Shown here: piece by piece, positions 1,254 to 52,433 of the stretch | How positions within the stretch are numbered: the first letter of the stretch is position 1 | Layout: each line of letters begins with the position of its first letter | NCBI GenBank assembly: GCA_903919125.1 | Contig: CAIXGS010000026.1 | Location: forward strand, 1-52,433 | DNA: 52,433 nucleotides | Origin: an uncultured Spartobacteria bacterium | GTDB lineage: Bacteria; Verrucomicrobiota; Verrucomicrobiia; Chthoniobacterales; Chthoniobacteraceae | Direction of reading: 5' to 3' | Made by a program: the position numbers and the translations under genes | The notes under the pieces: generated by a model | What the model saw: only the letters and a program-made list of their open reading frames with translations | Databases searched by the model: none | What the model was told of the DNA's origin: nothing

Positions 1254-3041
1254 TTATCGTCTCTTGTAAATAAGCACAGGCCGTCTGGACGGGTGTGTTT
1301 GGGTGGACCCTATCAGCGTATATTCGGACTGAATCCAGCGGGAGAATTCGGGGAAGGTATGGTAGCGGGGTTGGGACCCCGGAGAGGATCCCGGAAATGT
1401 GAACTCATCGGAAGCATCGACAAAAAAGGCGGGCTTGGACGTTTGGACGTCGGAAAGAAACGCTCTAAGAGTAGGATTGATTTCGAGGGGTGGGTCGACC
1501 TCCAGATTGCCCGCAGCAAAGCGGGTCGCAGGGCGCAGTTGAGTAAAGACGTGCAGTTTTGCATACCACCCCCAGATACACAGAGAGTCGCCTGGCTTCG
1601 CAATTTGTTTGAGAGCATCGGCGATGGGATTCGTTTCTTGCCCCCACGACGCGAGGAAATGTTTGTTTTGGGAATAGATAGCGAAGGTGCTCCGAGCTTG
1701 AAACAGGCAAAGAAAAACAGCGACAAAAGCAATTCCAAAGCCGAGGCGCTTATCACGTGAAGCTTCTGAATGCGGGTCAAAGCTCGCAGATGAGTTTGTG
1801 TGGGTGGCAGGCGGGGCCTGTTTAGCTTTTTTGGAGGGAGCGGTTAAGACGAATTCTCCGAGTGAGGCCTGAATTTCCGAGGGTACCGTATTAAGCAGAG
1901 ATTGCTCGTTAAAGAGATTGGAAGCCAACCACCCGAAAACGAGGGTCGAGGGGCCAATCAGGAGCATCAAATAATGTGGAAAGCCAAAGCCCGCTCGAAG
2001 TATTCCGTATAGCATGACACCAAAAAGAGAGAGGACACCGGCCCCCAGTGACAGATTAGTAGGGGAAAAAAAGCGCGAGGGACGCCGCGCCAATTGGAGG
2101 AAGAGAGCCCCAACGGAGGCTGCGATAAGCACCATAATGAAGGCACTGAAGTCTGGTACGCCTTTGAAAAGGAAATCGACGGCCGAGATTCTGTGGCCAG
2201 AATTGGAATAGCGGAGGCCCGACTGAATGTAGAACTCCATAAAGTCAGGCCAAACTCCCGCAGCCGCTACAGGCGCGAGAATGAGGATGGGAACAGTTAG
2301 TCCACCGAGGATCTGAGCTAATGTATTCCTATTCTTTGACAGCGTCGTATCTTTCGTGGCCCATATGATAATAATTCCAAAAATAAACAATAAAACTCCT
2401 GCTGGGGCGACTTGAAGTTTAGTAAAAGGAAGCGCGCCGGTGAGGAAGCCAAGGAGGTATGCACGGGTTCGCGATGTTCTTTTACGCTGTCTAGCAATTA
2501 AATAGACGATCCAAGCGCATAGCGCTGACGGAAACTGCTCACTCGAAAAATGAAGAAAATCGAGGTTGAGAGTGCTTAAAAGTAATGTCGTTGCAGGCAT
2601 TGCAGCGAGTAGGGCCAGTCGTGTGCCAGCAATTTCACTGAGGCTGAAAATAGTCCCTGAAAGAAGTGCGAATGTGCAGAATAGTCCTGTAATTCGCGCC
2701 GCTAAGTAGCCGAGCTTGAGCCCAAGCAGTGGGGCCCACAGTAGAACCCAAGTGTTCAGAGGGCCGCTGGAACCGCCGACCACAGAACGCCAAGGCATTG
2801 GGTCGGATAGGTATTTGAGCGCCTGCGCCAAGATCTGGCTCTCATCGACGTTAATTTCTCCATTGTACAGCAGGCTGCGCACTCGCCACACTGGTAGCGC
2901 CACAGCGAGTAAAACCAGAAAAGTGGTCACTGTATTTTTCCACAGCCTACTTGTGAAATCCCCCTTCTTCAAGATTGGGAATAACGCTACAGCAAGTAAC
3001 AAAAGCCAGAGTGAAACCGCTAAACTTAATCTCAGATCCAT
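1254..3041 (-). CDS. GT-C type membrane glycosyltransferase (ArnT/PMT-like)
   Basis: A 595-residue integral membrane protein with about ten hydrophobic segments in its first 400 residues. A soluble C-terminal part follows from about residue 460, including the CIWGWYAKLHVFTQLRPATR stretch. Just after the first membrane segments lies a luminal/periplasmic loop with the acidic motif NVDESQIL (near residue 64). This matches the D/E-containing first loop of GT39/GT83-type polyprenyl-phosphate sugar transferases. Such enzymes transfer a sugar from a lipid-phosphate donor to lipid A, protein or glycan at the outer face of the cytoplasmic membrane. It sits among surface-glycan genes. The donor and acceptor cannot be read from the sequence, and a general glucosyltransferase-like or O-antigen transfer role is also possible. 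Confidence 0.7.
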   Translation of the reverse strand: MDLRLSLAVSLWLLLLAVALFPILKKGDFTSRLWKNTVTTFLVLLAVALPVWRVRSLLYNGEINVDESQILAQALKYLSDPMPWRSVVGGSSGPLNTWVLLWAPLLGLKLGYLAARITGLFCTFALLSGTIFSLSEIAGTRLALLAAMPATTLLLSTLNLDFLHFSSEQFPSALCAWIVYLIARQRKRTSRTRAYLLGFLTGALPFTKLQVAPAGVLLFIFGIIIIWATKDTTLSKNRNTLAQILGGLTVPILILAPVAAAGVWPDFMEFYIQSGLRYSNSGHRISAVDFLFKGVPDFSAFIMVLIAASVGALFLQLARRPSRFFSPTNLSLGAGVLSLFGVMLYGILRAGFGFPHYLMLLIGPSTLVFGWLASNLFNEQSLLNTVPSEIQASLGEFVLTAPSKKAKQAPPATHTNSSASFDPHSEASRDKRLGFGIAFVAVFLCLFQARSTFAIYSQNKHFLASWGQETNPIADALKQIAKPGDSLCIWGWYAKLHVFTQLRPATRFAAGNLEVDPPLEINPTLRAFLSDVQTSKPAFFVDASDEFTFPGSSPGSQPRYHTFPEFSRWIQSEYTLIGSTQTHPSRRPVLIYKRR

Positions 3042-3265
3042 ACTAGTGGCTTAGGCAACAGTTGAGACGCTACAGGGACCCCACACCGCCGTATTGAGAA
3101 GACACTGGGGGGCGCCCGCAAAGTGTCCACGTTGATTGGTGACGGGGAGATATAATCTCAGAGAAACACTTTTTTTCCAGAAGCGGCTTAACAAATTTAA
3201 ATAGATAAATAATTTAACCCAAAGCAACCTTTGATTAAAACAACTTCACCAAAGGAAAAATTCTC

Positions 3266-17188: not shown

Positions 17189-17606
17189 ACAATCGGCCCT
17201 AAGAGTAGTTGCCAAAGAGATCTTCAGGAGATCATGGCGCGCCTAAGTGCGCGCACACCAGCAACTGCTTCATCCCGCGTCACAGCACCCAAGTTGAAGC
17301 CGAGCGATGAAATCGCGTGAACAGGAAGCGAGCAACCTACCACCGCTTCACTGCTGGTCAACCAGAGTTGTGTAGAAAATTTGTCATCGGGTTCCCAAAG
17401 CGAAACTCACTTTTCCCGGCCCAAAAAACAGACCTCCTCGGATCTTTTTACCTGATGCCAAAGAGGAGAAGGCTCCCAATAAATTTACCCTTAACGCAAG
17501 AAGCATTATCCGCAGTCAAGCAAGTTGCCCCACTGAATACTGTTCAGTGCAACCTGTGTCGGGAATCGCTTATCGGCCCGCTGCCCTTTCAGCCCTTTCA
17601 GCCCTT
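17189..17606. other. Intergenic region with a short coding-like remnant
   Basis: About 418 bp between two minus-strand genes. On the minus strand, a stretch of about 60 open codons ending at 17235 contains SLPVHAISSLGFNLGAV and looks somewhat protein-like. It has no start codon in good context and no recognised family. It may be a remnant of a decayed gene. No other feature was seen. Confidence 0.25.
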
Positions 17607-17610
17607 TCAG
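17584..17610. repeat. Tandem 9-bp repeat, three copies
   Basis: Three tandem copies of CCCTTTCAG overlap the 3' end of the adenosyltransferase gene. On the coding strand they give extra L-K-G residues immediately past the stop in other frames. This may be a replication-slippage product, with no evident function. Confidence 0.6.
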
Positions 17611-18173
17611 ACCGACTCGACCGCATCTTCCTTTACCGCCCCAAAGAGCGTTTCCGTCCATCGAGCCCATAGCCAACATAAATCCGACAAACGGTTCACG
17701 TACCTCAAGATGTTGGGGTTCACGTGAGCCCCGCTTTCCATTAACGACACGATCGCCCGCTCCCCCCTGCGGCAGGTTGTTCGGGCGACGTCCAAGCACG
17801 CACTTCCCTTGCTGCCTCCCGGAGTAGCCCAACCAGAGTAAGTAATTTTGTGATTTTTCTCCAAATCCACTATTTGAGCAGTCAACTCCTCCACCCATTC
17901 AGGCCCTATAACCTCCCTGCCCTTCTCCCGATAACGCACCTTGTCTCCAGAAGCCACAGCGAGCTCCCCCATAATAGGGATGAGCTGCTTTTGAATCTGC
18001 AAAATCCGCGTTTCAATTTCGGGGACCTCACAGAAGGCACGAACCATCCCAAGCGCCGAATTTAATTCATCCAAGGTCCCGTATGCCTCCACCCGTGGGT
18101 GCGTTTTGGACACGCGCCTACCGAACATCAGACCCGTAGTCCCATTATCACCCGTCTTGGTCGCAATTGACAT
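17607..18173 (-). CDS. Cob(I)yrinic acid a,c-diamide adenosyltransferase, PduO type
   Basis: A 188-residue ATP:cob(I)alamin adenosyltransferase, which transfers the adenosyl group of ATP to reduced corrinoid to make coenzyme B12. The N-terminal ATP-binding stretch TKTGDNGTTGLMFG is followed by VEAYGTLDELNSALG. The C-terminal half carries RTTCRRGERAIV and NPNILRYVNRLSDLCWLWAR, both typical of PduO/MMAB. The length is normal for a stand-alone enzyme. No other B12 biosynthetic gene is nearby, suggesting corrinoid salvage. No cobalamin riboswitch motif was recognised in the upstream region 18174-18396, which is shared with the divergent DksA-like gene. Confidence 0.93.
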   Translation of the reverse strand: MSIATKTGDNGTTGLMFGRRVSKTHPRVEAYGTLDELNSALGMVRAFCEVPEIETRILQIQKQLIPIMGELAVASGDKVRYREKGREVIGPEWVEELTAQIVDLEKNHKITYSGWATPGGSKGSACLDVARTTCRRGERAIVSLMESGAHVNPNILRYVNRLSDLCWLWARWTETLFGAVKEDAVESV

Positions 18174-18396
18174 ACACGTGGTCTACCATCGGAAAATGCT
18201 TGTGCCAACCTCTCGCAATGTCTTCCAACAGCTTTTGAAACTACCCGCATCGCCTGCAGATAATATTCCGCTAAAATTTTAAAGCCGCTACGATTACGCT
18301 TGCACGAAGGAAAGAGGAAAGATAAATACCCGACCTTATTTTTTGCCGCCACCCGAATTCCTCCAGCACAACCGCGACACTTTGGAACCTAATTTT

Positions 18397-19542
18397 ATGC
18401 CTAAGTCCAAGCCAGCAAAATCTGAAGGCAAGCCTACTCCCACCAAAAAAGTTGCACTAAAGAAGACCGCAACGGGAGCAAAAGCGACTCCCGTCAAAGC
18501 TAAATCAGCCCCTGCTAAAGCTAAAGCCGCCCCCGCTAAAGCTAAAGCCGCCCCTGCTAAAGCTAAAGTCGCCCCCGCTAAAGCTAAACCAGCTCCCGTC
18601 AAGGCCAAAGCGATTCCCGCTAAGGCTAAGGCGTCTACGCCAGCCCCCCCAAAGGCTAAACCATCTCCGGCTAAAGCACACTCCACGAAGGCGAAAACAG
18701 CCCCAGCTAAAGCTAAAGCGGTTTTTGTTAAGGCCAAATCAGCTCCCGCTAAGGCTAAACAGCAAGCCTCCTCAGGATCAAAAACGACGCCCGTCAAGGT
18801 AGTCAAAGCGGTGACGAAACCAGTTTCTAAAAAAGGTGCATCGATGGCATCTTCAAAAAAAGCTGACGCAACACCGAAGAGCAAATCTATCTCGAAAGCC
18901 GTTCCAGCACCGAAAACTGAGCCTACCCCTGCTTCCCAAAAAGCAACGCCCGCCCCAAAAGCGCCCGCAAGCAAACCCGCTGGGAAAGCTCAAAAAGCTT
19001 CATTAGAAGGAAAAAAAATTCTCGCAGACGAGTTGGCCAAAAAGAAAATTCTTCCACCTGAGAAAAAGAAGGTCACCGACGAATGGGTTCTCCAACAGCG
19101 GGAACGTATTTACGAACTCCGCGACAATTTAGTGGAATCGATGCACGGAGTGGCAAAAGACACGCTGCGTTCCCGCGCTGAGGGCAGCGAGGCGAGCGCC
19201 TTCGGGATGCACCAAGCGGACGCCGGTAGTGATTCCTACGACCGCGACTTCGCCCTATCCCTTCTGAGCCAAGAGCAAGACGCCCTCTACGAAATTGACG
19301 AAGCCCTCAAGCGGATCGAAATTGGAACTTACGGAGTGTGCGAGATGAGCGGCAAGGTGATTAAACGCGAACGCCTAGAAGCGCTGCCTTTCGCTCGATA
19401 CACGGTAGAATGTCAGGCGGAAGTTGAGCGGCAAAAGAAGCTGCATAAGGCTCGGATGCCCGTGACTTCACTATTTGGTCTCACCGAGGAAGAAGGCGCC
19501 GAAGGCGAAGAAGAAGACCAAACCCTCGACGCTAAAGATTAA
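18397..19542 (+). CDS. DksA/TraR-like protein with long Lys-Ala-Pro tail
   Basis: About 381 residues from the ATG at 18397; an in-frame upstream ATG at 18343 would add 18 residues of poor context. Residues 1 to about 215 are a histone-H1-like low-complexity region built on A-K-A-K-x-A-P units. The C-terminal 150 residues resemble DksA/TraR: a coiled-coil region (VLQQRERIYELRDNLVESM, ALYEIDEALKRIEIGTYGVC) and the zinc-finger-like end. Only two of the four expected cysteines remain (CEMSG instead of CxxCG, and TVECQ instead of CxxC), so the zinc site is probably lost. DksA-type proteins bind RNA polymerase, and the basic tail should bind nucleic acid. Position just upstream of rpmG-rpsR suggests a role linked to growth control, which is an inference. 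Confidence 0.85.
   Translation: MPKSKPAKSEGKPTPTKKVALKKTATGAKATPVKAKSAPAKAKAAPAKAKAAPAKAKVAPAKAKPAPVKAKAIPAKAKASTPAPPKAKPSPAKAHSTKAKTAPAKAKAVFVKAKSAPAKAKQQASSGSKTTPVKVVKAVTKPVSKKGASMASSKKADATPKSKSISKAVPAPKTEPTPASQKATPAPKAPASKPAGKAQKASLEGKKILADELAKKKILPPEKKKVTDEWVLQQRERIYELRDNLVESMHGVAKDTLRSRAEGSEASAFGMHQADAGSDSYDRDFALSLLSQEQDALYEIDEALKRIEIGTYGVCEMSGKVIKRERLEALPFARYTVECQAEVERQKKLHKARMPVTSLFGLTEEEGAEGEEEDQTLDAKD
18490..18760 (+). repeat. In-gene minisatellite encoding AKAKxAP units
   Basis: Imperfect tandem copies of a roughly 21-bp unit containing gctaaagctaaa and gcccctgctaaa encode the basic tail of the DksA-like protein. Copies differ mainly at third codon positions, so the peptide repeat is under selection while the DNA drifts. 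Such arrays can change copy number by slippage. Confidence 0.8.
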
Positions 19543-19599
19543 TCTTTAGCACTTCCAATACCCTCTCCATTAAACTACCATCCATTTACTGATTAAACC

Positions 19600-40815: not shown

Positions 40816-41961
40816 ATGCCAAGCATCCACAAGGACGCAAAGAACCGCTCACCCAACTGGATTGCAGCCTTCCGGGGAGCCGACGGACGACGTAAACAAA
40901 AGAGTACCGGTACCAAGAACCGCGCCGACGCATTACGTCTTGCAGTCGAGTGGGAGCGCCTTGCAAGCGATGGGCGAAATAACCGCCTAGTCGCTGCTCA
41001 AGCGCGCAAAGTCATCTCCGAAATCACAGAACATGCCACTGGCGAGCCGCTGCATTACAAGAATGCAAAGGATTACTTCACCGAGTGGCTCCGGAATAAT
41101 GAAGGCACAACATCAAAGGCAACTTTCGCCAAGTACAAGCAAGTGGGCACCGCTTTTGTGACGTCCTTGGGGAAGCGTGCCGATTTCCCACTTAACGCCT
41201 TAGGGGCTCCCGATGTCACGACCTACCGAGACAAACTGATCCAGAAAGGCCTGTCAGCAGCCAGTGTCACCAACCTCTTGAAAGTCCTCTCCGTTGCCTT
41301 TGAGGCGGCTGAAAGAGAAGGCTTAATCCCGCAGAATCCCGTCAAAGCCGTCAAGCGACCTTCTGAAACTGAAAAACATGAGCGCGAGGCATTCACAATC
41401 GACCAATTACGCGCACTCCTCGCTGCTTCTGAGGGCGACTGGCATGGGTGCATCCTCTTTGGGTTCCACACCGGTCTGCGGCTTCGGGACATCACCCAGC
41501 TCAAATGGGAAAACTTTGACCTGGATTCACGAACCTATTCGGTACGCACCTCGAAAACCAAACGCTCCCATACGGCCGGGCTGCATCCAGATTTATTGCA
41601 GTGGCTCGCTGGCAGAATTCAGGGAGTACCCAAGGCCTGTGCGTTCCCGGAGCTTGCAGGGAAGCAGGGAGGTGGAGAAAGTGGTCTTAGTAAACAGTTT
41701 AAAAGGATTATGGAGCGGGCTGGGATCAAGGGTCAGTTGATGAGACGTGCTACAGGTAAAGCAGGTAGGAATGTCAGCTCCCTGTCTTTTCACTCGCTAC
41801 GCCACACTTGCGCCACCATGCAGGCTGCTCAAGGCGTCCCCGAGGAACTCCGCATGGTCCACTTGGGACATTCCACCAAGGCTGCCCATAAAATTTATAC
41901 CCACAGGGAACTCACCCAACTACGGGACATTGCTGCCTCGGTGCCAAGCATCCTCTCCTAG
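40816..41961 (+). CDS. Tyrosine-type site-specific integrase
   Basis: A 381-residue recombinase with an N-terminal arm-binding region, a SAM-like core-binding domain (about residues 75-175: YFTEWLRNNEGTTSKATFAKY) and a catalytic domain. The catalytic residues are all visible: Arg222 in HTGLRLRD, His326 and Arg329 in FHSLRHT, His352 in HLGHST and the nucleophile Tyr361 in KIYTH. It should integrate or excise the island using the adjacent tRNA 3' end. It is transcribed away from the tRNA fragment and into the island. No excisionase gene is recognised next to it. Confidence 0.93.
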   Translation: MPSIHKDAKNRSPNWIAAFRGADGRRKQKSTGTKNRADALRLAVEWERLASDGRNNRLVAAQARKVISEITEHATGEPLHYKNAKDYFTEWLRNNEGTTSKATFAKYKQVGTAFVTSLGKRADFPLNALGAPDVTTYRDKLIQKGLSAASVTNLLKVLSVAFEAAEREGLIPQNPVKAVKRPSETEKHEREAFTIDQLRALLAASEGDWHGCILFGFHTGLRLRDITQLKWENFDLDSRTYSVRTSKTKRSHTAGLHPDLLQWLAGRIQGVPKACAFPELAGKQGGGESGLSKQFKRIMERAGIKGQLMRRATGKAGRNVSSLSFHSLRHTCATMQAAQGVPEELRMVHLGHSTKAAHKIYTHRELTQLRDIAASVPSILS

Positions 41962-43533: not shown

Positions 43534-43671
43534 TCCCGGACGTTTCGGACGCAATTTCGCAACTCTATCCACACCACGGCGAGGACAGACCCCAACGACG
43601 GGCTCCCAAGCCCTAGCATTATTACACCTTATCCTATTAGACTGAAAATTTAGCGTCCGATGCGTCCGGGA
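43534..43671. repeat. MITE-like repeat copy A
   Basis: A 138-bp element with inverted ends: CCCGGACGTTTCGGACGC on the left and GCGTCCGATGCGTCCGGG on the right. It matches copy B at 44427-44566 over its whole length, by eye about three quarters identical. It lies between the DUF104 gene and the DUF5615/DUF433 pair. Confidence 0.75.
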
Positions 43672-44325: not shown

Positions 44326-44426
44326 ATGTGCAGGGTGCCTCGCCTCCAGCGCCTTGTCAATGTTGGTGGCGCTAATAAATACCACGGACTCGGTATCCTG
44401 GATTACAAAAGCGATGCCAACGCCAG

Positions 44427-44566
44427 CCTCGGACGTTTCGGACGCAATGTTGCAACTCCATCCAGCCCACGGCAAGGCAAAGATCCACATGGCGGAGCTC
44501 ACTACCCTCTACAGTCATTACACTTTATCCCATTCGACTGAAAAACTAGCGTCCGAGACGTCCGAG
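44427..44566. repeat. MITE-like repeat copy B
   Basis: About 140 bp with left end TCGGACGTTTCGGACGC and right end GCGTCCGAGACGTCCGAG. It is related to copy A throughout, including the shared CATTACAC-TTATCC-ATT-GACTGAAAA block near the right end. It bounds the DUF5615/DUF433 pair on its upstream side. Confidence 0.75.
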
Positions 44567-45231
44567 AACCGGACACCGGATGGGATGATGGCCGCATTTC
44601 CAATTTTCCAGATTTCCAGAGGTGGCGGTAACTGGCGAACTTCATGTTCAGACCGCTGCCTGCACTGCTGCAGAGTTGCCAATTGGCAACTTTTTGCTCC
44701 GCTCCTTGCGCCTTCCAGAATAAATCGCCCGGTAGCCCCCGTGCAAACGGCGGCCGAAAAGTGGACCGCTCAGGATTATCGTTGTGTTCAACGCGACGAG
44801 GTCAAATTTGGCCGGCCAACCGAACCCATGCCGCTTTACCGTTCAGACCCCTTCCAGAAAGCCCTGAACGCTTCCCCCCGCAAACGCCAACCTCGGACAC
44901 CAGCTCGGATGATCTCCAAACGGAGTCCTATGCGCTTCTCCATCCACACCAGCCCTTATGGCACGTCACTGCCACCGTCACGCCAAGCCTCTGGAATACC
45001 CACGAATCCTATGGCTCCAATATGGAGCCACATGTTTCCAGCTTTACGCCGGTGGCGAATTGTGGACTGATGACTGGGGCGATTTCAAGGTGCGATTAGA
45101 ACTCCGGAAGAATCTTCGGAGTGCATTTCTCGACGATAAGTCCCATGGCTCAGATTCTTTATATGAACACAACGAGGATCAAGGCGCTTCCCTACGTGTA
45201 GCCGAACCTAGGGGAGAACCCATCACGCAAT
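44567..45231 (+). pseudogene. Possible frameshifted gene of unknown family
   Basis: Two overlapping plus-strand frames (44644-45099 and 44958-45242) join into a more sensible protein if one base is removed near 44988. This gives TATVT followed by KPLEYPRILWLQYG, then LYAGGELWTDDWGDFKV and ELRKNLRSAFLD. I recognise no family. The reading may be accidental, since the region lies among gene debris. Confidence 0.25.
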
Positions 45232-45847: not shown

Positions 45848-45873
45848 AATGTTTGAATTAAGGATAAGAAATT

Positions 45874-45923
45874 GCTTTTTGCCCCCCGGCACGATTTCTT
45901 CAGCCTGGACGCGGGAGCGTTAA
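45874..45923. repeat. 50-bp direct repeat, left copy
   Basis: Identical over 50 bp to 51703-51752, from GCTTTTTGCC to GAGCGTTAA. A further 12 bp on the left are partly conserved. It lies upstream of the zinc-ribbon gene and marks the left edge of the sulfatase cassette. Confidence 0.95.
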
Positions 45924-46152
45924 TGCGCAAACTGGAATACTAGAATCCAGTCCGTACTGGAACCAATAAGAGGGTAAACGAGTGCTTGTTTCCCGAATTC
46001 GCACACGGGGCATCCACCTGTTCTCTCAGCTCCCTCAACGAACCCCTCACGCGCTATACACCGCTTTAGCTCTCGGAAGTTCCCGCTGACTCAACCGTAG
46101 CAACGATATCGCTACTCACCAAAACAATCCAAAACCTTTAGCTCTTCAGTCC

Positions 46153-47685
46153 ATGAAACCACTGCTCCTCCTTTGTGTCTTACCCATCGCTACGTCTGTA
46201 TCGGCAGCCGAACGCACGTCCGATCGTCCAAACATCGTTCTCATTCTTGCAGATGACTTTGGCTACGGCAGTGCGGGATGTTATGGCGCAGACCCCAAGT
46301 TGGTCAGGACTCCCGCGATCGACCGTCTGGCGGCTGAAGGACGGAAGTTCACCGACGCAAACACGACGTCCTCCGTCTGTTCTCCGACTCGCTATTCAGT
46401 TCTGACTGGTCGCTATTGCTGGCGCACCTCACTCACCCACGAAGTGCTTGGCACGTTTTCACCGCTGCATATCGAGCCGAACCGATTGAATATGGCATCT
46501 CTGCTCAAGAAGCACGCTTACGCTACTGCGGCCATTGGCAAATGGCATTTGGGATACGGCAAGGAGGACGGATCCATCAAGTGGCGAACCGACTACTCCG
46601 CGGAACTATCCCCTGGCCCTCTTGATATCGGGTTCGACTACCACTTTTCAGTTCCCAGCAACCACGGAGATCTCACGGGCATATACGTTGAGAACCGGTA
46701 TGTGTATGGGCTCCGCTCTGGGAAGATTCCTGAGGGAATGAAAATTCCTGGGCCTGCGGCTGACAACGACGATTTCCAGGACACCTATGGCCCGGAGGAC
46801 GTTCAAAGCGGAAAGACGGTAATGTCCATAGACGCACCGAGGAGGAGGAACGAACGCGTGATGAAAGTGCTGACCGACAAGGCAACGCACTGGCTGAAAT
46901 CCCAACCCAAAGACCAACCATTCTTTCTCTATTTCACACCGGTCGCGGTACACAACCCCGTTACTCCCGACAAGGATCTGGCTGGAACAAGCGCTGCGGG
47001 CCTCTACGGCGACTGGATTCACGAACTTGACCGGAGCGTTGCTCGCATCCTGGAAACGCTCGACGCAATGGGCGCTTCTCAAAATACCATCGTCCTCTTT
47101 ACGAGCGACAACGGGGGCGTCTCCGCTCCCAACAATGAGCGTCTACCGCAGACCGTGGCATTTAAGGCGGGGTTGAAGATCAACGGCGACCTGAAAGGAA
47201 GTAAGCATGATGTTTGGGACGGCGGATTCAAGGTGCCGTTCATCGTCCGTTGGCCTGCCAAGGTGCAGCCCGGTAGCGTCGCAACTCAAATGGTGAGCGT
47301 CGTCGATATACTCGCAACCACCTCCGAGATCGTTGGTGAACCTTTGCCCCCCATAAAAACCGCCGCGGAAGACAGCCGCAGTTTCTTATCCGTTCTCCTT
47401 GGAGACCGCTCGGCGTACGGACGGGAAGACATGATCCTTCACAGCGCCGACGGTAATTTCGCGGTGCGCAAGGGGCCCTGGAAGTGGATTGAGGGAACAC
47501 CAGTCAAAGAGATTTCCGCAGCAGTACGAAGGGTCCGAAAGAGTCAGTTTTTCAGCCAACTATACAATATCCAGGACGACCCTTTTGAGACGACGGACAT
47601 TGGCGCGAAGCATCCGGAGAAGATCGCCGAACTGAAGGAACTCCTGCGCCGCTGCCGCGATGGAGGGCATAGCCGCGAGCTGTAG
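46153..47685 (+). CDS. Secreted sulfatase, formylglycine type (cassette gene 1)
   Basis: A 510-residue sulfatase with signal peptide MKPLLLLCVLPIATSVSAAE. Metal-binding residues lie in NIVLILADDFGYG, and the C-S-P-T-R signature has Cys76. GKWHLGYG, VLFTSDNGG and DGGFKVPFIVRWP are further S1-family landmarks. The C-terminus ends LYNIQDDPFETTDIG then a Lys/Glu helix. It removes sulfate esters from a polysaccharide outside the cytoplasm. It is directly followed by the GH32-like gene and then another sulfatase, as in sulfated-glycan degradation cassettes. Confidence 0.95.
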   Translation: MKPLLLLCVLPIATSVSAAERTSDRPNIVLILADDFGYGSAGCYGADPKLVRTPAIDRLAAEGRKFTDANTTSSVCSPTRYSVLTGRYCWRTSLTHEVLGTFSPLHIEPNRLNMASLLKKHAYATAAIGKWHLGYGKEDGSIKWRTDYSAELSPGPLDIGFDYHFSVPSNHGDLTGIYVENRYVYGLRSGKIPEGMKIPGPAADNDDFQDTYGPEDVQSGKTVMSIDAPRRRNERVMKVLTDKATHWLKSQPKDQPFFLYFTPVAVHNPVTPDKDLAGTSAAGLYGDWIHELDRSVARILETLDAMGASQNTIVLFTSDNGGVSAPNNERLPQTVAFKAGLKINGDLKGSKHDVWDGGFKVPFIVRWPAKVQPGSVATQMVSVVDILATTSEIVGEPLPPIKTAAEDSRSFLSVLLGDRSAYGREDMILHSADGNFAVRKGPWKWIEGTPVKEISAAVRRVRKSQFFSQLYNIQDDPFETTDIGAKHPEKIAELKELLRRCRDGGHSREL

Positions 47686-47848
47686 GCTGTCAAAAAGGCG
47701 CCGATACGATGATCCGGGAACAAGCGCCTTATCCAACGAACAGCACCTAAAAGTAGATCTCACGAATACGAATATGACCGACGTAATTGAATCGAATCAT
47801 ACACAGACAGCGGATAGACGGCCGTCGAAAACGAAAAACCGTAGCACG

Positions 47849-49879
47849 ATGCTTTCAGGAAGATTCGCGAATCGATCTCAGATACTAAGCACGTTCGCCT
47901 CCTTGGCTATCGTTGGCTCCGGTCTTGCAGCCCCTACACTGACGGCTGCAGAGAGTACCATCATATGCGAAAGCTATGATCCCAAGATTGGATTTTCGAT
48001 CCGTGCACGTCTTCCCGACGACCTGCCCTCTTCTGGAAGTATCCTCAGCGAAATGAAGGACGCAGATGGCGCACTTCTTCTGCGCCTGTCGATTGACGGC
48101 GAACAACTCGTCCTCGCTACGTGGACTCAACCGCCGCCACAATCTAAGATCAACCAGCAAGCCGCCAAACATCCCACCAAAGCTGGCAGTCAAAGTGAGC
48201 GACTGCGACAGGGGCGGCTGGATTTAGGCATTCCTCTGAGCCTACTGACTAAGTCCCAGCAGCGCGATCTGACACTCGTCGTGACGCCCGCGCGTTTGTC
48301 CCTCTATTTGAATGGCGTTCTAATAAACGAGGAATGGCCCCTAGGTCTCATGCAATTCAAGACTCCGATTTCCCTGAACTCGGCAAACGGAGCGACCGTC
48401 ACCAGCTCCGAGGCTACACCCAGTTCTGGGAAAGTAGCGCAAATAAACGGCGGCGCTGCCCAGGTAAAAGAAAACTGGAACCGGCTTCTCAGCGATACCG
48501 GCAGTGCGCCTCCCTATTTTCGCCCCTTCGGCATCAACACGCACGCAGGTGACAACATGCCTTTTTACCACGAAGGGCGATGGCACCTTTTTTACCTCTT
48601 CGATCGCCGTAACCATACGAGCAAGTTTGGATATGGCGGATTCGAATGGGGCCACATTTCCACCACTGACCTAGTGAAATGGCAGGAGCACCCCACAGCT
48701 ATCGGTATCACCGACCCTTGGGACTCGATCATTACGGGGAGTGTGATTCATAGCGGTGAGGAATACCTCGCGTTTTACAACACGAACCTTTCGCCTGAAA
48801 CCCTGGGTAGATCCGGGTCCAGTCAGAACGCGGGACGCGGCGTTCGTGTCGCGCGGAGTACAGACGGTTTCAATTTCACAAGAGATCCAGTGCCGGTACC
48901 GCATGTCCTGTCTTTTGGGGATCCCGATGTGTTTCGCATGGATGATGGGCGGTACGGAATGCTTTCGCGGGGCGATGAGAAGGGCCAACGCAAGATTGCA
49001 TTCCATACCTCTCTGGATCTCAAAACGTGGCAGAGAGAGGATCACAGCCCCATCGCATTCGCGCCGGACAACTGCGACTGTCCACACTATTTCACCTTCC
49101 GTGGAACAAGCTACCTCTTCGCCTCAAAAGTCGCGAGGAAAGCTAATAGTTTAAACGGCCCCTGGATGGACATTCCGAAATCCACTCTGGGAGTTCCGAA
49201 AACAGCTATGTGGAAGGATGGCAGGCGTCTCATTTCCGGGACCGTCTCGGACGGGGGTTGGGGCGGCGATGCCATTCTTCACGAGCTGGTTCAACTGCCC
49301 GGTGAATTACTTGGCGAAAAATTTGTGGATGAACTCACCCCTCTCCGAGGAGAACCCATCAAGGTGCATATCGTTCCATTGTTTGGCAACGCTCAGCCTG
49401 GTAAAGACCACGTCACGCTGAAAGGAGCAGCTGGATTTTCCGCGGTCGCCATCGATGAAATTCCCGAAAAAGCCCGCATTCGCCTTTCTATAAAAGCGTC
49501 TCAAGATTGCAGGCGCTTTGGTATAGGAGCCCGTGGCAAGGGAGCTTATGAAGCCGGATCTGTTTTATTGTTCAAACCCACGGAAAAAGCCGCCGTATAC
49601 GGATCCATTCTAGGCCCTGACAAACACAACGAGATCCGCGAAATCAAGGAAGTTGGAGGAATAGATCAGCTTATCGCCGTTGACCTTATCTTGGGTCCAA
49701 ACGGAATCGTAGACCTCGAAATCAATAACCAACGGTGCCTCACTGGCCGTGGTTCCGCAAATGCGGATTTCAGGCGTTGCTTTCTTTTCAGCGAAGGTGG
49801 CGAAGTACTCTTCGAAAACATCGAGGTCCTTCCATGGGAACCAAATGCTACAATGGAGGCGATTACCCACTCGAAGTAA
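47849..49879 (+). CDS. Secreted GH32-like glycoside hydrolase (five-bladed propeller)
   Basis: About 676 residues from ATG 47849, which opens a signal peptide (SQILSTFASLAIVGSGLAAPTLTAAE). The frame is open further upstream, with ATGs at 47774 and 47660; the last lies inside the previous gene. After a beta-rich N-terminal region with lectin-like features (residues about 30-200), the catalytic part starts FRPFGINTHAGDNMPFYHEGRWHLFYL. This parallels GH32 NDPNG-type starts, with an Asp at the usual nucleophile place. FGDPDVFRMDDG corresponds to the RDP motif. The acid/base motif is NCDCPHYF, with D-C where GH32 has E-C, so chemistry may differ. A C-terminal beta domain follows. GH32 enzymes act on fructans, but the sulfatase neighbours suggest a sulfated glycan. 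Confidence 0.8.
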   Translation: MLSGRFANRSQILSTFASLAIVGSGLAAPTLTAAESTIICESYDPKIGFSIRARLPDDLPSSGSILSEMKDADGALLLRLSIDGEQLVLATWTQPPPQSKINQQAAKHPTKAGSQSERLRQGRLDLGIPLSLLTKSQQRDLTLVVTPARLSLYLNGVLINEEWPLGLMQFKTPISLNSANGATVTSSEATPSSGKVAQINGGAAQVKENWNRLLSDTGSAPPYFRPFGINTHAGDNMPFYHEGRWHLFYLFDRRNHTSKFGYGGFEWGHISTTDLVKWQEHPTAIGITDPWDSIITGSVIHSGEEYLAFYNTNLSPETLGRSGSSQNAGRGVRVARSTDGFNFTRDPVPVPHVLSFGDPDVFRMDDGRYGMLSRGDEKGQRKIAFHTSLDLKTWQREDHSPIAFAPDNCDCPHYFTFRGTSYLFASKVARKANSLNGPWMDIPKSTLGVPKTAMWKDGRRLISGTVSDGGWGGDAILHELVQLPGELLGEKFVDELTPLRGEPIKVHIVPLFGNAQPGKDHVTLKGAAGFSAVAIDEIPEKARIRLSIKASQDCRRFGIGARGKGAYEAGSVLLFKPTEKAAVYGSILGPDKHNEIREIKEVGGIDQLIAVDLILGPNGIVDLEINNQRCLTGRGSANADFRRCFLFSEGGEVLFENIEVLPWEPNATMEAITHSK

Positions 49880-50017
49880 CAATCACACAACCAGTGACAT
49901 GCACTTCTTCGGACACGCTAAAACCGCTTCCTTTCGAACACCCATTCATCCAGAGATCCACCCCATACACGTCTACTCCCTAGTGATCGACTACCCGACT
50001 CACGCTGAATTTTAGCC

Positions 50018-51469
50018 ATGAACTCCAGAGCTCATCTTATCCGCACCAGTCTCTTGCTGGTTTTCGCCGGAATCGCTATTCCAGCCCGCGCGTTCAATCC
50101 GCCAATCCACCCGAATATTGTTTTCATCTTGGCCGACGACCTTGGGTACATGGACATTGGCGCGAACAATCCGAAATCGTTCTACGAAACTCCCAATATC
50201 GACAAGCTGGCGAAAAGCGGGATGCGATTCACGCAGGGGTATGCCGCCTGTTGCGTCTGCTCTCCAACTCGTGGCAGCATTATGACCGGAAAATATCCGG
50301 CGCGATTCGGTATCACGGACTGGATTCCGGGCAGCAAACGCTCTGGAAAATTAGTATCTGCGCCTAACGCAGTGCATCTACCTCTGGAAGAAGTAACTCT
50401 CGCAGAAGCCTTACGAGAGAGTGGCTACTCCACCTTTTTCGCTGGCAAATGGCATCTCGGGACTGGCAAGTTTTCACCTAATGCGCAGGGGTTTGGGCCC
50501 GACCTTATCTCCAGCGATGGCTCGCAATTCTGGTATCCTTCGTCCGACGTCCCGCCCCCAAGCCATGACGATGATCCGAAGACCACCGACCGGATCGTAA
50601 ACGACGCCATACGTTTTATTGCCGCAAACAAGGATAAGCCCTTCTTTGCATACCTGCCGTTCCTTGCAGTCCATAATAAGATTGGCGCCAGGCGAGATTT
50701 GGTCGCGAAGTACGAAAGAAAAAAGGGCCTCGCCCCAGAGGACGCATCCGGAGTCGAGGGAGATCGGAAGGTAAACTTGGTGCAAAACAATGCCGTGTAC
50801 GCAGCGATGATAGAGCAGCTGGATTCCGGAATTGGGCGGCTACAGAACGCACTTTCCGAAAATGGCCTCACTGAAAAAACCGTTGTCATTTTCATGTCCG
50901 ACAACGGTGGACTATCGACCAGCGAAGGTAGCCCCACCTCAAACCTCCCCCTACGCGGAGGAAAAGGATGGCCTTACGAAGGTGGTATCCGCGAACCCTG
51001 GATTATATCTGCGCCTGGGGTAACCAACCCCGATACCATCTGTGACAGTCCTGTTATCAGCACGGACTATTACCCAACAATCTTGGAACTGGCCGGCCTC
51101 CCATTGAAACCGGAACAACATGTCGACGGGGTCAGCATTGTTCAATTACTCAAGGCGAAGACACTTCCGCAACGCCCCATATTCTGGCACTATCCGCATT
51201 ACAGCAACCAAGGCGGCGCACCGCACGGAGCAGTCCGGGTCGGTGAGTTCAAACTCATCGAATGGTACGAAGATATGCGCGCCGAGTTGTATAACCTCCA
51301 AGACGATCTCGAAGAACGCCACGATCTCTCCAATAAACTCGCCGAAAAGACGGACGAACTCCGGAAGCTACTTCACGACTGGCGCGCCGATCTGAAGGCC
51401 CAGATGCCCACACCAAATGCAGATTTCAAGCCGAAGGCACCTGCTTCTGAAAAAAACAATACGAAGTAG
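50018..51469 (+). CDS. Secreted sulfatase, formylglycine type (cassette gene 2)
   Basis: A 483-residue sulfatase with a signal peptide (RTSLLLVFAGIAIPARA). The N-terminal NIVFILADDLGYMDIG is followed by ETPNIDKLAKSGMRFTQGYAACCV and the signature C-S-P-T-R at Cys81. GKWHLGTG, VIFMSDNGG, GGKGWPYEGGIREPWI and the ending LYNLQDDLEERHDLSNKL are also present. It belongs to the same broad S1 family as the 46153 gene but is clearly a different subfamily, not a recent duplicate. It lies 138 bp downstream of the GH32-like gene and probably shares its transcript. Confidence 0.95.
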   Translation: MNSRAHLIRTSLLLVFAGIAIPARAFNPPIHPNIVFILADDLGYMDIGANNPKSFYETPNIDKLAKSGMRFTQGYAACCVCSPTRGSIMTGKYPARFGITDWIPGSKRSGKLVSAPNAVHLPLEEVTLAEALRESGYSTFFAGKWHLGTGKFSPNAQGFGPDLISSDGSQFWYPSSDVPPPSHDDDPKTTDRIVNDAIRFIAANKDKPFFAYLPFLAVHNKIGARRDLVAKYERKKGLAPEDASGVEGDRKVNLVQNNAVYAAMIEQLDSGIGRLQNALSENGLTEKTVVIFMSDNGGLSTSEGSPTSNLPLRGGKGWPYEGGIREPWIISAPGVTNPDTICDSPVISTDYYPTILELAGLPLKPEQHVDGVSIVQLLKAKTLPQRPIFWHYPHYSNQGGAPHGAVRVGEFKLIEWYEDMRAELYNLQDDLEERHDLSNKLAEKTDELRKLLHDWRADLKAQMPTPNADFKPKAPASEKNNTK

Positions 51470-51514
51470 AGCGCCCCAGTCATCTACTCCGAGTTCAAGC
51501 GCAGGTGCTCTTCA

Positions 51515-51702
51515 TTACGGCTTCAAATGCCAGTCCGTGGCATCCGCCATCACGCTAGTGTTGATTTTGAGCAACTGACTTTTCATCTGCTCCACTCGCT
51601 CAGGTTGCGTCGCGGCGAGATCCTTTGTTTGCGACGGATCCGCTTCCAGGTCGAAAAGCTGATAGTTCTTGTACGTCCCCGCTTTGAAAGGATAGGAATT
51701 CG
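51515..51702 (-). pseudogene. Truncated sulfatase, C-terminal fragment
   Basis: On the minus strand, a frame ending at 51515 encodes FKAGTYKNYQLFDLEADPSQ, then TKDLAATQPERVEQMKSQL and ends DWHLKP. LFDLEADPSQTKDLA is the typical C-terminal end of S1 sulfatases. Sequence similarity stops at the 50-bp repeat, where an in-frame stop occurs a few codons further up. The N-terminal three quarters including the C-x-P-x-R site are gone. It is a remnant of a sulfatase gene that ran opposite to the cassette. Confidence 0.75.
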
Positions 51703-51752
51703 CTTTTTGCCCCCCGGCACGATTTCTTCAGCCTGGACGCGGGAGCGTTAAA
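51703..51752. repeat. 50-bp direct repeat, right copy
   Basis: Perfect copy of 45874-45923 in the same orientation, 5.8 kb away. It cuts off the sulfatase fragment on its left. On its right, the next bases GAGAATTGCTTTTGCCC again resemble the start of the repeat, suggesting a partial duplication. Confidence 0.95.
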
Positions 51753-52072
51753 GGAGAATTGCTTTTGCCCGATTCCCAGCGTGGCGTACAGCGAAATCCG
51801 GCCATTATGTGCGACTTTGGCTTTGGTTTCCGGTAAAAGACCGGCTTGGTTCAAAGCTCGTATCGTTCAACTTGCGCACCAGTTCCTAGCCACAGTTTTA
51901 TCGTCAATTGGGGCAATGGAGCATCATCGATGGGTTTGGTGACTCGAGCGTCTGATACCTAAAAAAGAGGCCCACGCCAGAGCCTCTTTTCCGCCGTTGC
52001 CAACGCGTCAGCAACGACTCGCACACTGGACGTCTCCAGTTGCTCTTCCATCAAACCACTAGCATCGCAACG
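51753..52072. other. Gene debris and terminator region
   Basis: About 320 bp with no intact gene. Minus-strand codons near 51870-51950 read LPQLTIKLWLGTGAQVERYEL and stop; the family is not recognised and this may be a remnant. A hairpin terminator occupies 51961-51990. Confidence 0.4.
51961..51990 (-). terminator. Rho-independent terminator downstream of the 62-residue gene
   Basis: Stem AAAAGAGGC / GCCTCTTTT around a CCACGCCAGA loop. On the minus strand it ends in six T residues, suited to terminate the DUF932-to-small-gene transcript about 85 bp after its last stop. Confidence 0.85.
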
Positions 52073-52261
52073 CTACGGCTTGATGGTCCTGCCCAAGCAC
52101 GACTGACGACGGATCATGTCATCGGCCAGGTTGCGCAGTCTGCTCTCCAAGCTTTGTACAGCTTCGTCCGACACATGACGCATCCCCAAAGCCGGGCGCA
52201 GCATTTGTGAGCGGTCGAGGAGATAGCGTTTCAACTCAGTGTGATTTACTAAGCGGCTCAT
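52073..52261 (-). CDS. Conserved-looking small protein, unknown function
   Basis: A 62-residue protein from ATG 52261, preceded by a strong ribosome binding site (GGGAGGAA, 4-nt spacer). That site decides this start over an in-frame ATG 20 codons upstream inside the neighbouring gene. It is basic and helical: MSRLVNHTELKRYLLDRSQM and SLESRLRNLADDMIRRQS. No family is recognised. It lies one base after the DUF932-like gene stop and is certainly co-transcribed with it. A plasmid- or phage-type accessory role is inferred from that neighbour. Confidence 0.7.
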   Translation of the reverse strand: MSRLVNHTELKRYLLDRSQMLRPALGMRHVSDEAVQSLESRLRNLADDMIRRQSCLGRTIKP

Positions 52262-52262
52262 T

Positions 52263-52433
52263 TTAGTTCCTCCCGTGGGTTCCTGTTTCAGCGTCGAAGA
52301 GCCCGTACAAGGCTTCTCCACGTCGGCAGGCGGTGTGTGGATTCACTCGCTTATGAACCTCGGTCACAGCGTTGAACAAGCTCCAGGCTGTTCGTGGCAG
52401 GAACTCACTGTGGCTCGGTTCTCGCCATTCACC
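52263..52433 (-). CDS. DUF932-like phage/plasmid protein, C-terminal part (cut by edge)
   Basis: The last 56 codons of a minus-strand gene that enters from the right edge. The visible part has FLPRTAWSLFNAVTEVHKR and ALYGLFDAETG. The R-T-x-W-x-x-x-N-A-x-T-E pattern is close to the end of DUF932 proteins found on phages, plasmids and integrated elements. These proteins have no settled function. It supports the view that the island continues past the window. Confidence 0.55.
   Translation of the reverse strand, partial: GEWREPSHSEFLPRTAWSLFNAVTEVHKRVNPHTACRRGEALYGLFDAETGTHGRN

Follow-up and report, generated by a model that had tools for sequence, protein, structure and literature searches.

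A short polar repeat in an uncultured Spartobacteria bacterium as the probable ori-side end of an IS91-family lineage

The closest described counterparts of the repeat reported here are insertion sequences (IS) of the IS91 type. IS91 and IS801 have an HUH rolling-circle transposase and an ori end that lies behind the transposase gene, and passages on IS801 describe miniature ori-end pieces of 229, 360 and 679 nt as well as neighbouring DNA moved by one-ended transposition (PMC3189936). The same passages put right-end miniatures at 26.3% of IS801 insertions and mention occasional mobilisation of neighbour DNA. In ISCR elements, likewise, one oriIS end located behind the transposase suffices to mobilise the DNA next to it, according to the sections of PMC13023784 that deal with it. 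We analysed a stretch of 52,433 nt (the window; contig CAIXGS010000026.1 of assembly GCA_903919125.1) from an uncultured Spartobacteria bacterium, in which a repeat of about 64 nt, here called unit AB (A, left part; B, right part), stands on both sides of three genes. The unit is probably the terminal, ori-side piece of an IS91-family rolling-circle IS lineage of the genus that moves by a one-ended route.

A repeat family and its link to IS91-type transposases

The genome of the window (G000; 4,340,187 bases, 87 contigs) contains 42 matches to the left window copy at E values up to 0.001, at unrelated sites. The original prediction had treated the repeat pair as the boundary of a dedicated gene cassette and had named a widespread non-coding family with copies at unrelated sites as the finding that would speak against it; since this is what G000 holds, that part of the prediction falls. 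We surveyed 57 genomes of the order, comprising 12 of the same genus (most of them fragmented metagenome assemblies), 24 from the rest of the family and 21 from the rest of the order. AB was present in all 12 genus genomes and in none of the other 24 and 21. Some of the matches within the genus were weak or short, such as 23 nt in G002 (equal to the left end of an F-type unit) and a match with an E value of 3.7e-6 in G005. An exact-pattern scan of named genomes returned 36 stretches in six assemblies, all labelled as Verrucomicrobiota-type and including 'Verrucomicrobiota bacterium BS8', and viral contigs, plasmids and phages gave zero matches. Among the papers listed we noticed none describing these units, in a literature that is not searchable by sequence and that mostly lacks subscription journals.

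The loci that we fetched hold 126 AB copies (43 in G000, 38 in G003, 24 in G009, 17 in G001 and 2 each in BS8 and G004). The left part is complete in 83 of the 126, slightly shortened in 22 and replaced or lost in 21, and 102 of the 111 copies that reach the right end finish with GCGTTAA. The GATA start is preceded by AAAG, GAAG, TAAG or AACG in 60 of 74 distinct copies (8 further copies lack the GATA start), while ACT precedes most units of type E and AGT most of type F. The flanks of 125 distinct copies showed no target duplication. Solo units measure about 61–67 nt. Tandem units exist as well, the first copy being trimmed in some. Among 118 distinct right flanks with a length of 25 nt or more, 22 start with a module C (GGGAGAATTGCTTTTGCCC and on). 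A coding role of the unit was ruled out because copies carry frame-changing indels. Rfam found one tRNA only in the window at gathering score, and nothing in loci L108, L140 and L009 at E values up to 5. When 48 distinct units were folded, the only structure was a short hairpin at the right end.

A short, high-copy, non-coding unit of this kind could also belong to the repetitive extragenic palindromic (REP) sequences or REPINs, which are moved by a REP-associated tyrosine transposase (RAYT, a Y1 transposase), and passages of PMC3733652 report a different type of REP from Opitutus terrae. The unit is not palindromic, however, and the Y1_Tnp domain was not found in G009, holder of at least 24 copies. 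On these two counts the REP/REPIN explanation was rejected and is very improbable. A separate high-copy repeat, CGAAAAGTGTCTGTCCCCTGCGTCTC (loci L009–L028), supplies the commonest abundant k-mer in the fetched G000 DNA (14-mer seed 28 times, both strands).

The link to a transposase comes from four loci (L216, L218, L220 and L221) at which a unit of type E2 or F lies 229–233 nt behind the stop codon of a transposase gene, the gene being antisense. The E2 and F units share the plan of AB (GATARGAAA...CTTTT...TAA), and in each of the four elements the unit is followed by GGGAGAATTGCTTTT, which also opens module C after AB (22 of 118 copies). The proteins of these elements carry an HPHIH motif and exceed the cut-offs of NF033538 (NCBIfam) and of PF04986 and PF14319 (Pfam); their scores lie under the cut-off of ISCR clade Ia. 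For the AB type the transposase was found as C-terminal pieces only. By tblastn, antisense transposase C-termini were located behind AB and a module C-D' in L012 (G000), L162 (G009) and L133 (G003), and L132 yielded another transposase piece. The distances from unit to transposase at the three AB-type loci are 241, 249 and 175 nt, and the C-terminus in L012, which is the start of G000 contig C42, is 66.7% identical to the E2 type. Because transposase elements show the same plan and transposase C-termini stand behind AB, we take AB to be the end of an AB-type IS91-like element that lies on the transposase-3' side. If the analogy with IS91 and ISCR holds, that end of the element would be the ori end. 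Most AB copies would then be solo leftovers without a transposase, and E, E2 and F units are likewise found with no transposase behind them.

Several observations weigh against this assignment. The IS91-type transposase domain (PF04986), above cut-off in 5 of the 12 genus genomes, is above it in neither G000 nor G001 despite the many units there. Only 4 of 9 PF04986 matches, eight of which were fetched (the ninth is weak), show a unit on the 3' side: two (L217 and L219) end within the transposase gene, and no unit was found at L215, a more distant IS91 type, or at L222, a fragment. In L105 and L107, transposase fragments border on units in different layouts, and the second end of the element is undefined. 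The right-end hairpin is weak and for other unit types no better than that of shuffled sequences. Since tandem units too have AAG between them, ahead of GATA, this motif may be the element's own rather than the target's. Searches for empty sites gave no support: 161 joined flanks compared with the fetched loci produced tandem-unit and self-derived matches only, and the joined flanks of a few sites had none in the 12 genomes.

Polarity, gene junctions and segments common to species

Of 53 pairs of neighbouring units at least 100 nt apart, 47 have both members on one strand (sign test, 6e-9), as do 22 of 22 in G000, counted over loci picked for holding units and with one shared segment entered in two genomes. 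A bias toward one replication strand, judged by local GC skew, was unsupported (38 of 62 loci, p 0.10). Genes around the units, as called by a crude open reading frame (ORF) caller, run 60 minus to 35 plus on the left and 50 to 38 on the right, a count that we set aside. A cassette array of integron-like attC sites (a cluster of attC sites lacking integron integrases, CALIN) would likewise be expected to surround varied gene blocks with repeats that point one way. This explanation is contradicted by the single-strand fold of the unit, which is no better than shuffled sequences, by the positions after GTTAA, which are not conserved, and by the integrase itself, which is over cut-off only in G005, a genome with one weak unit match, and survives in G000 as a 44-aa remnant. 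The integron reading was thus rejected on fold and integrase, and there is very little chance that it holds. Integron integrase sequence is present on G005 contigs C3, C8 and C36, one over cut-off and the others partial, and no attC-like array was seen beside the C3 integrase (L173).

Dissimilar stretches of DNA meet at units, and genes are sometimes cut there. At G009 locus L151 a single unit has an hsdR-like start on one side and a trpC-like fragment on the other (both named by eye); the G009 relatives of the two are on separate contigs, C101 and C142. From the unit onward, an FAD oxidoreductase in G001 (L101) retains just profile positions 282–416 of 416, and an IS3-type OrfA domain in G003 (L141; match just below cut-off) halts at position 39 of 75. 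Pfam gave no clear assignment for the gene pieces in L117 and L079.

Junctions of this kind also delimit DNA common to different species. G000 contig C57 and G003 contig C164 have 4,865 nt in common at 99.86% (7 mismatches), which encode proteins of the phosphate uptake type together with an ArsR regulator and a rhodanese. In both genomes this segment starts within the B part of a unit, the left parts being different; in G003 it stops exactly at the left end of a unit, mid-rhodanese, while G000 reads on, and the remaining part of the rhodanese was not found in G003. A second segment, of 7,004 nt at 99.54%, is common to G003 contig C145 and G009 contig C71, and begins exactly at the right end of a unit in G003, where G009 has other DNA. 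A third stretch common to G009 and G003 (2,279 nt at 99.69%) carries an IS91 gene. By comparison, the gene end beside the G009 break differs by 10–14% between the two species. With two interspecies segments breaking exactly at a unit, the earlier proposal that the repeats serve as insertion or recombination junctions is borne out. At the G009 break (L171), a stretch suspected of being an old unit was discarded because it did not outscore shuffled letters at the 1% level.

The main rival, which we consider possible rather than probable, accepts the units as IS91 ends and has the blocks moved and the genes cut mainly by homologous recombination between the 64-nt copies. Dozens of near-identical copies are available for it, the 99.86% block starts in a B part common to G000 and G003 with differing left parts, and the passages of PMC3189936 on natural IS801 fragments, which weigh against one-ended transposition here too, attribute most of them to reorganisation instead. 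Two breaks speak against it, one in the middle of the rhodanese gene (G003) and one at TCGCATTT (G003 versus G009): the other genome has no unit there, and so a unit must have been added at both. Trimmed tandem units, further, are no product of exact recombination. Mis-binning is possible for the common segments because the contigs are short metagenome pieces, and an assembly or binning artefact could more generally be suspected where most genomes are fragmented. We judge such an artefact to be improbable, as the units differ between species yet stay coherent and units and pieces of genes form the same patchwork on a 102-kb contig of BS8.

The repeat pair of the window and the genes between its copies

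The window contains an exact 50-nt repeat at 45874–45923 and 51702–51751, far beyond chance for two identical 50-mers inside 52 kb. The original prediction had found this pair, with the second copy placed one position too far right (51703–51752). It extends to 64 nt at 95% identity, and the features of the region are as follows.

45860–45923, plus strand: left AB copy, the putative terminal unit of an IS91-like element, solo, with no module C after it
46153–47685, plus strand: sulfatase (PF00884), between the units
47660–49879, plus strand: GH32N-domain protein (PF00251), with an in-frame ATG at 47849 as a possible start
50018–51469, plus strand: sulfatase (PF00884), between the units
about 51518–51685, minus strand: 56-aa remnant of a sulfatase C-terminus that stops at the right unit and matches Sulfatase_C weakly
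51688–51751, plus strand: right AB copy, 95% identical to the left copy
51753–51930, plus strand: module C-D', which in AB-type elements spans from the unit to the transposase 3' end
51951–52433, minus strand: DUF932-like segment that follows C-D' and is truncated by the contig end

The pair does enclose three plus-strand genes, as had been predicted; whether these carry secretion signals was judged only by eye. The right copy had been described as interrupting an opposite-strand sulfatase. A 56-aa remnant does adjoin it (Sulfatase_C match below the Pfam cut-off, E = 0.021), and no more sulfatase sequence was noticed beyond the copy, which for this reason marks a junction rather than a clean interruption. 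The right copy also opens a longer element that consists of the unit, C-D' and the DUF932-like segment and runs off the contig. This order recurs in L010, L101, L102, L109 and L110 (in the L101 copy the DUF932 Pfam match falls short of the cut-off), and L107 has a DUF932-like segment without a unit. The right element of the window is a transposase-less derivative, cut by the contig end. Past the DUF932-like segment, L101 encodes a group II intron-type reverse transcriptase/maturase at 17396–19546 (RVT_1, Intron_maturas2); RVT_1 exceeds the cut-off in 7 of the 12 genus genomes, with no clear pattern.

A cassette bounded by direct repeats, the pair being formed by, and serving for, insertion and loss of the three genes, would agree with the direct orientation of the copies around genes on one strand, and recombination between the copies could delete the block. 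We regard it as unlikely: unit copies are everywhere in G000, the right copy is part of a longer element, and the left copy is closer to one at C57:9936 (100% over 58 nt) than to its window partner (95%). Nor did the pair qualify as a composite transposon, the left copy being solo and the right one having no transposase as far as the contig reaches. Of the predicted insertion, recombination or duplication, the mobile origin and the junction role thus stand and the dedicated three-gene cassette does not. Among the matches listed in the genus search, the three genes found single sulfatase genes elsewhere at 71–72%, and on this ground look accessory. Their block sits on the putative read-through side of the left unit and ends in a cut gene at the next unit, as the rhodanese block does, a position that fits capture by read-through.

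Several further features deserve mention. An antisense GTG start (MPGGKKQ...) opens a leftward ORF in several units, such as those at window 45860, L101 16313 and L127 5458. At 40816–41961, 4 kb before the left unit, lies a gene for a tyrosine recombinase (Phage_integrase). Another repeat, about 140 bp long and bearing inverted ends of the GGACGTTTCGGACGC type, resembles a miniature inverted-repeat transposable element; it occurs at window 43537–43671 and 44425–44572 and in many relatives, and in the window it adjoins a further repeated stretch (44573–44950). A run of 21-bp units (GCTAAAGC...) at 18457–18781 lies inside the ORF at 18343–19542, and the 1,800 nt at 1254–3053 have an 86% copy at G000 contig C5:73–1872.

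Proposed movement and comparison with known systems

The family, its link to IS91 transposases, the polarity, the cut genes and the common blocks that break at units are the observations to be explained, and one-ended rolling-circle movement is the best account that the sequences suggest for polarity and junctions. An HUH transposase would act in trans, starting at the GATAGG end of the unit. Often it would stop right after GCGTTAA, leaving solo units of about 61–64 nt; otherwise it would read through into neighbouring DNA, and a unit with its gene block would be copied elsewhere by one-ended transposition. The three window genes would then form a block with a solo unit on one side and, on the other, a longer derivative that lacks the transposase. 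More tentatively, the system might be a bacterial counterpart of Helitron gene shuffling, with IS91 ori-side ends of several types living as self-standing mini-elements of about 60 nt that spread in trans, and with one-way arrays through which gene blocks are cut, captured and handed from one species to another. Such blocks would include the phosphate uptake and rhodanese genes, a set of ceramidase, sialidase-like and esterase genes, and perhaps the sulfatases of the window.

An otherwise anonymous high-copy bacterial repeat is hereby assigned a transposase family. IS91, IS801 and ISCR already exemplify one-ended rolling-circle movement, and in Verrucomicrobiota such movement may be shaping accessory genes for glycan degradation; the many solo units with defined ends are suited to locating the start and stop of an IS91-type transposase.

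Compared with IS801 as portrayed in those passages of PMC3189936, the solo units are short (about 61–67 nt), number dozens of copies in several co-existing types, are strongly polar and are known from sequence alone. They differ from the ISCR elements of the PMC13023784 sections in having no tie to resistance genes or integrons and in the transposases, which score below the clade Ia cut-off. With Helitrons, as the Helraiser passages of PMC4778049 present them, they have in common a rolling-circle logic in which truncation and read-through create new ends and carry gene pieces; Helitrons are, however, eukaryotic and have a clear 3' hairpin terminator, whereas the hairpin here is weak or absent. 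Like the REPs and REPINs covered in the cited passages of PMC3733652, finally, the units are short, high-copy bacterial repeats of mobile origin, but they lack the palindrome, and the requirement for a Y1 transposase was not seen in them.

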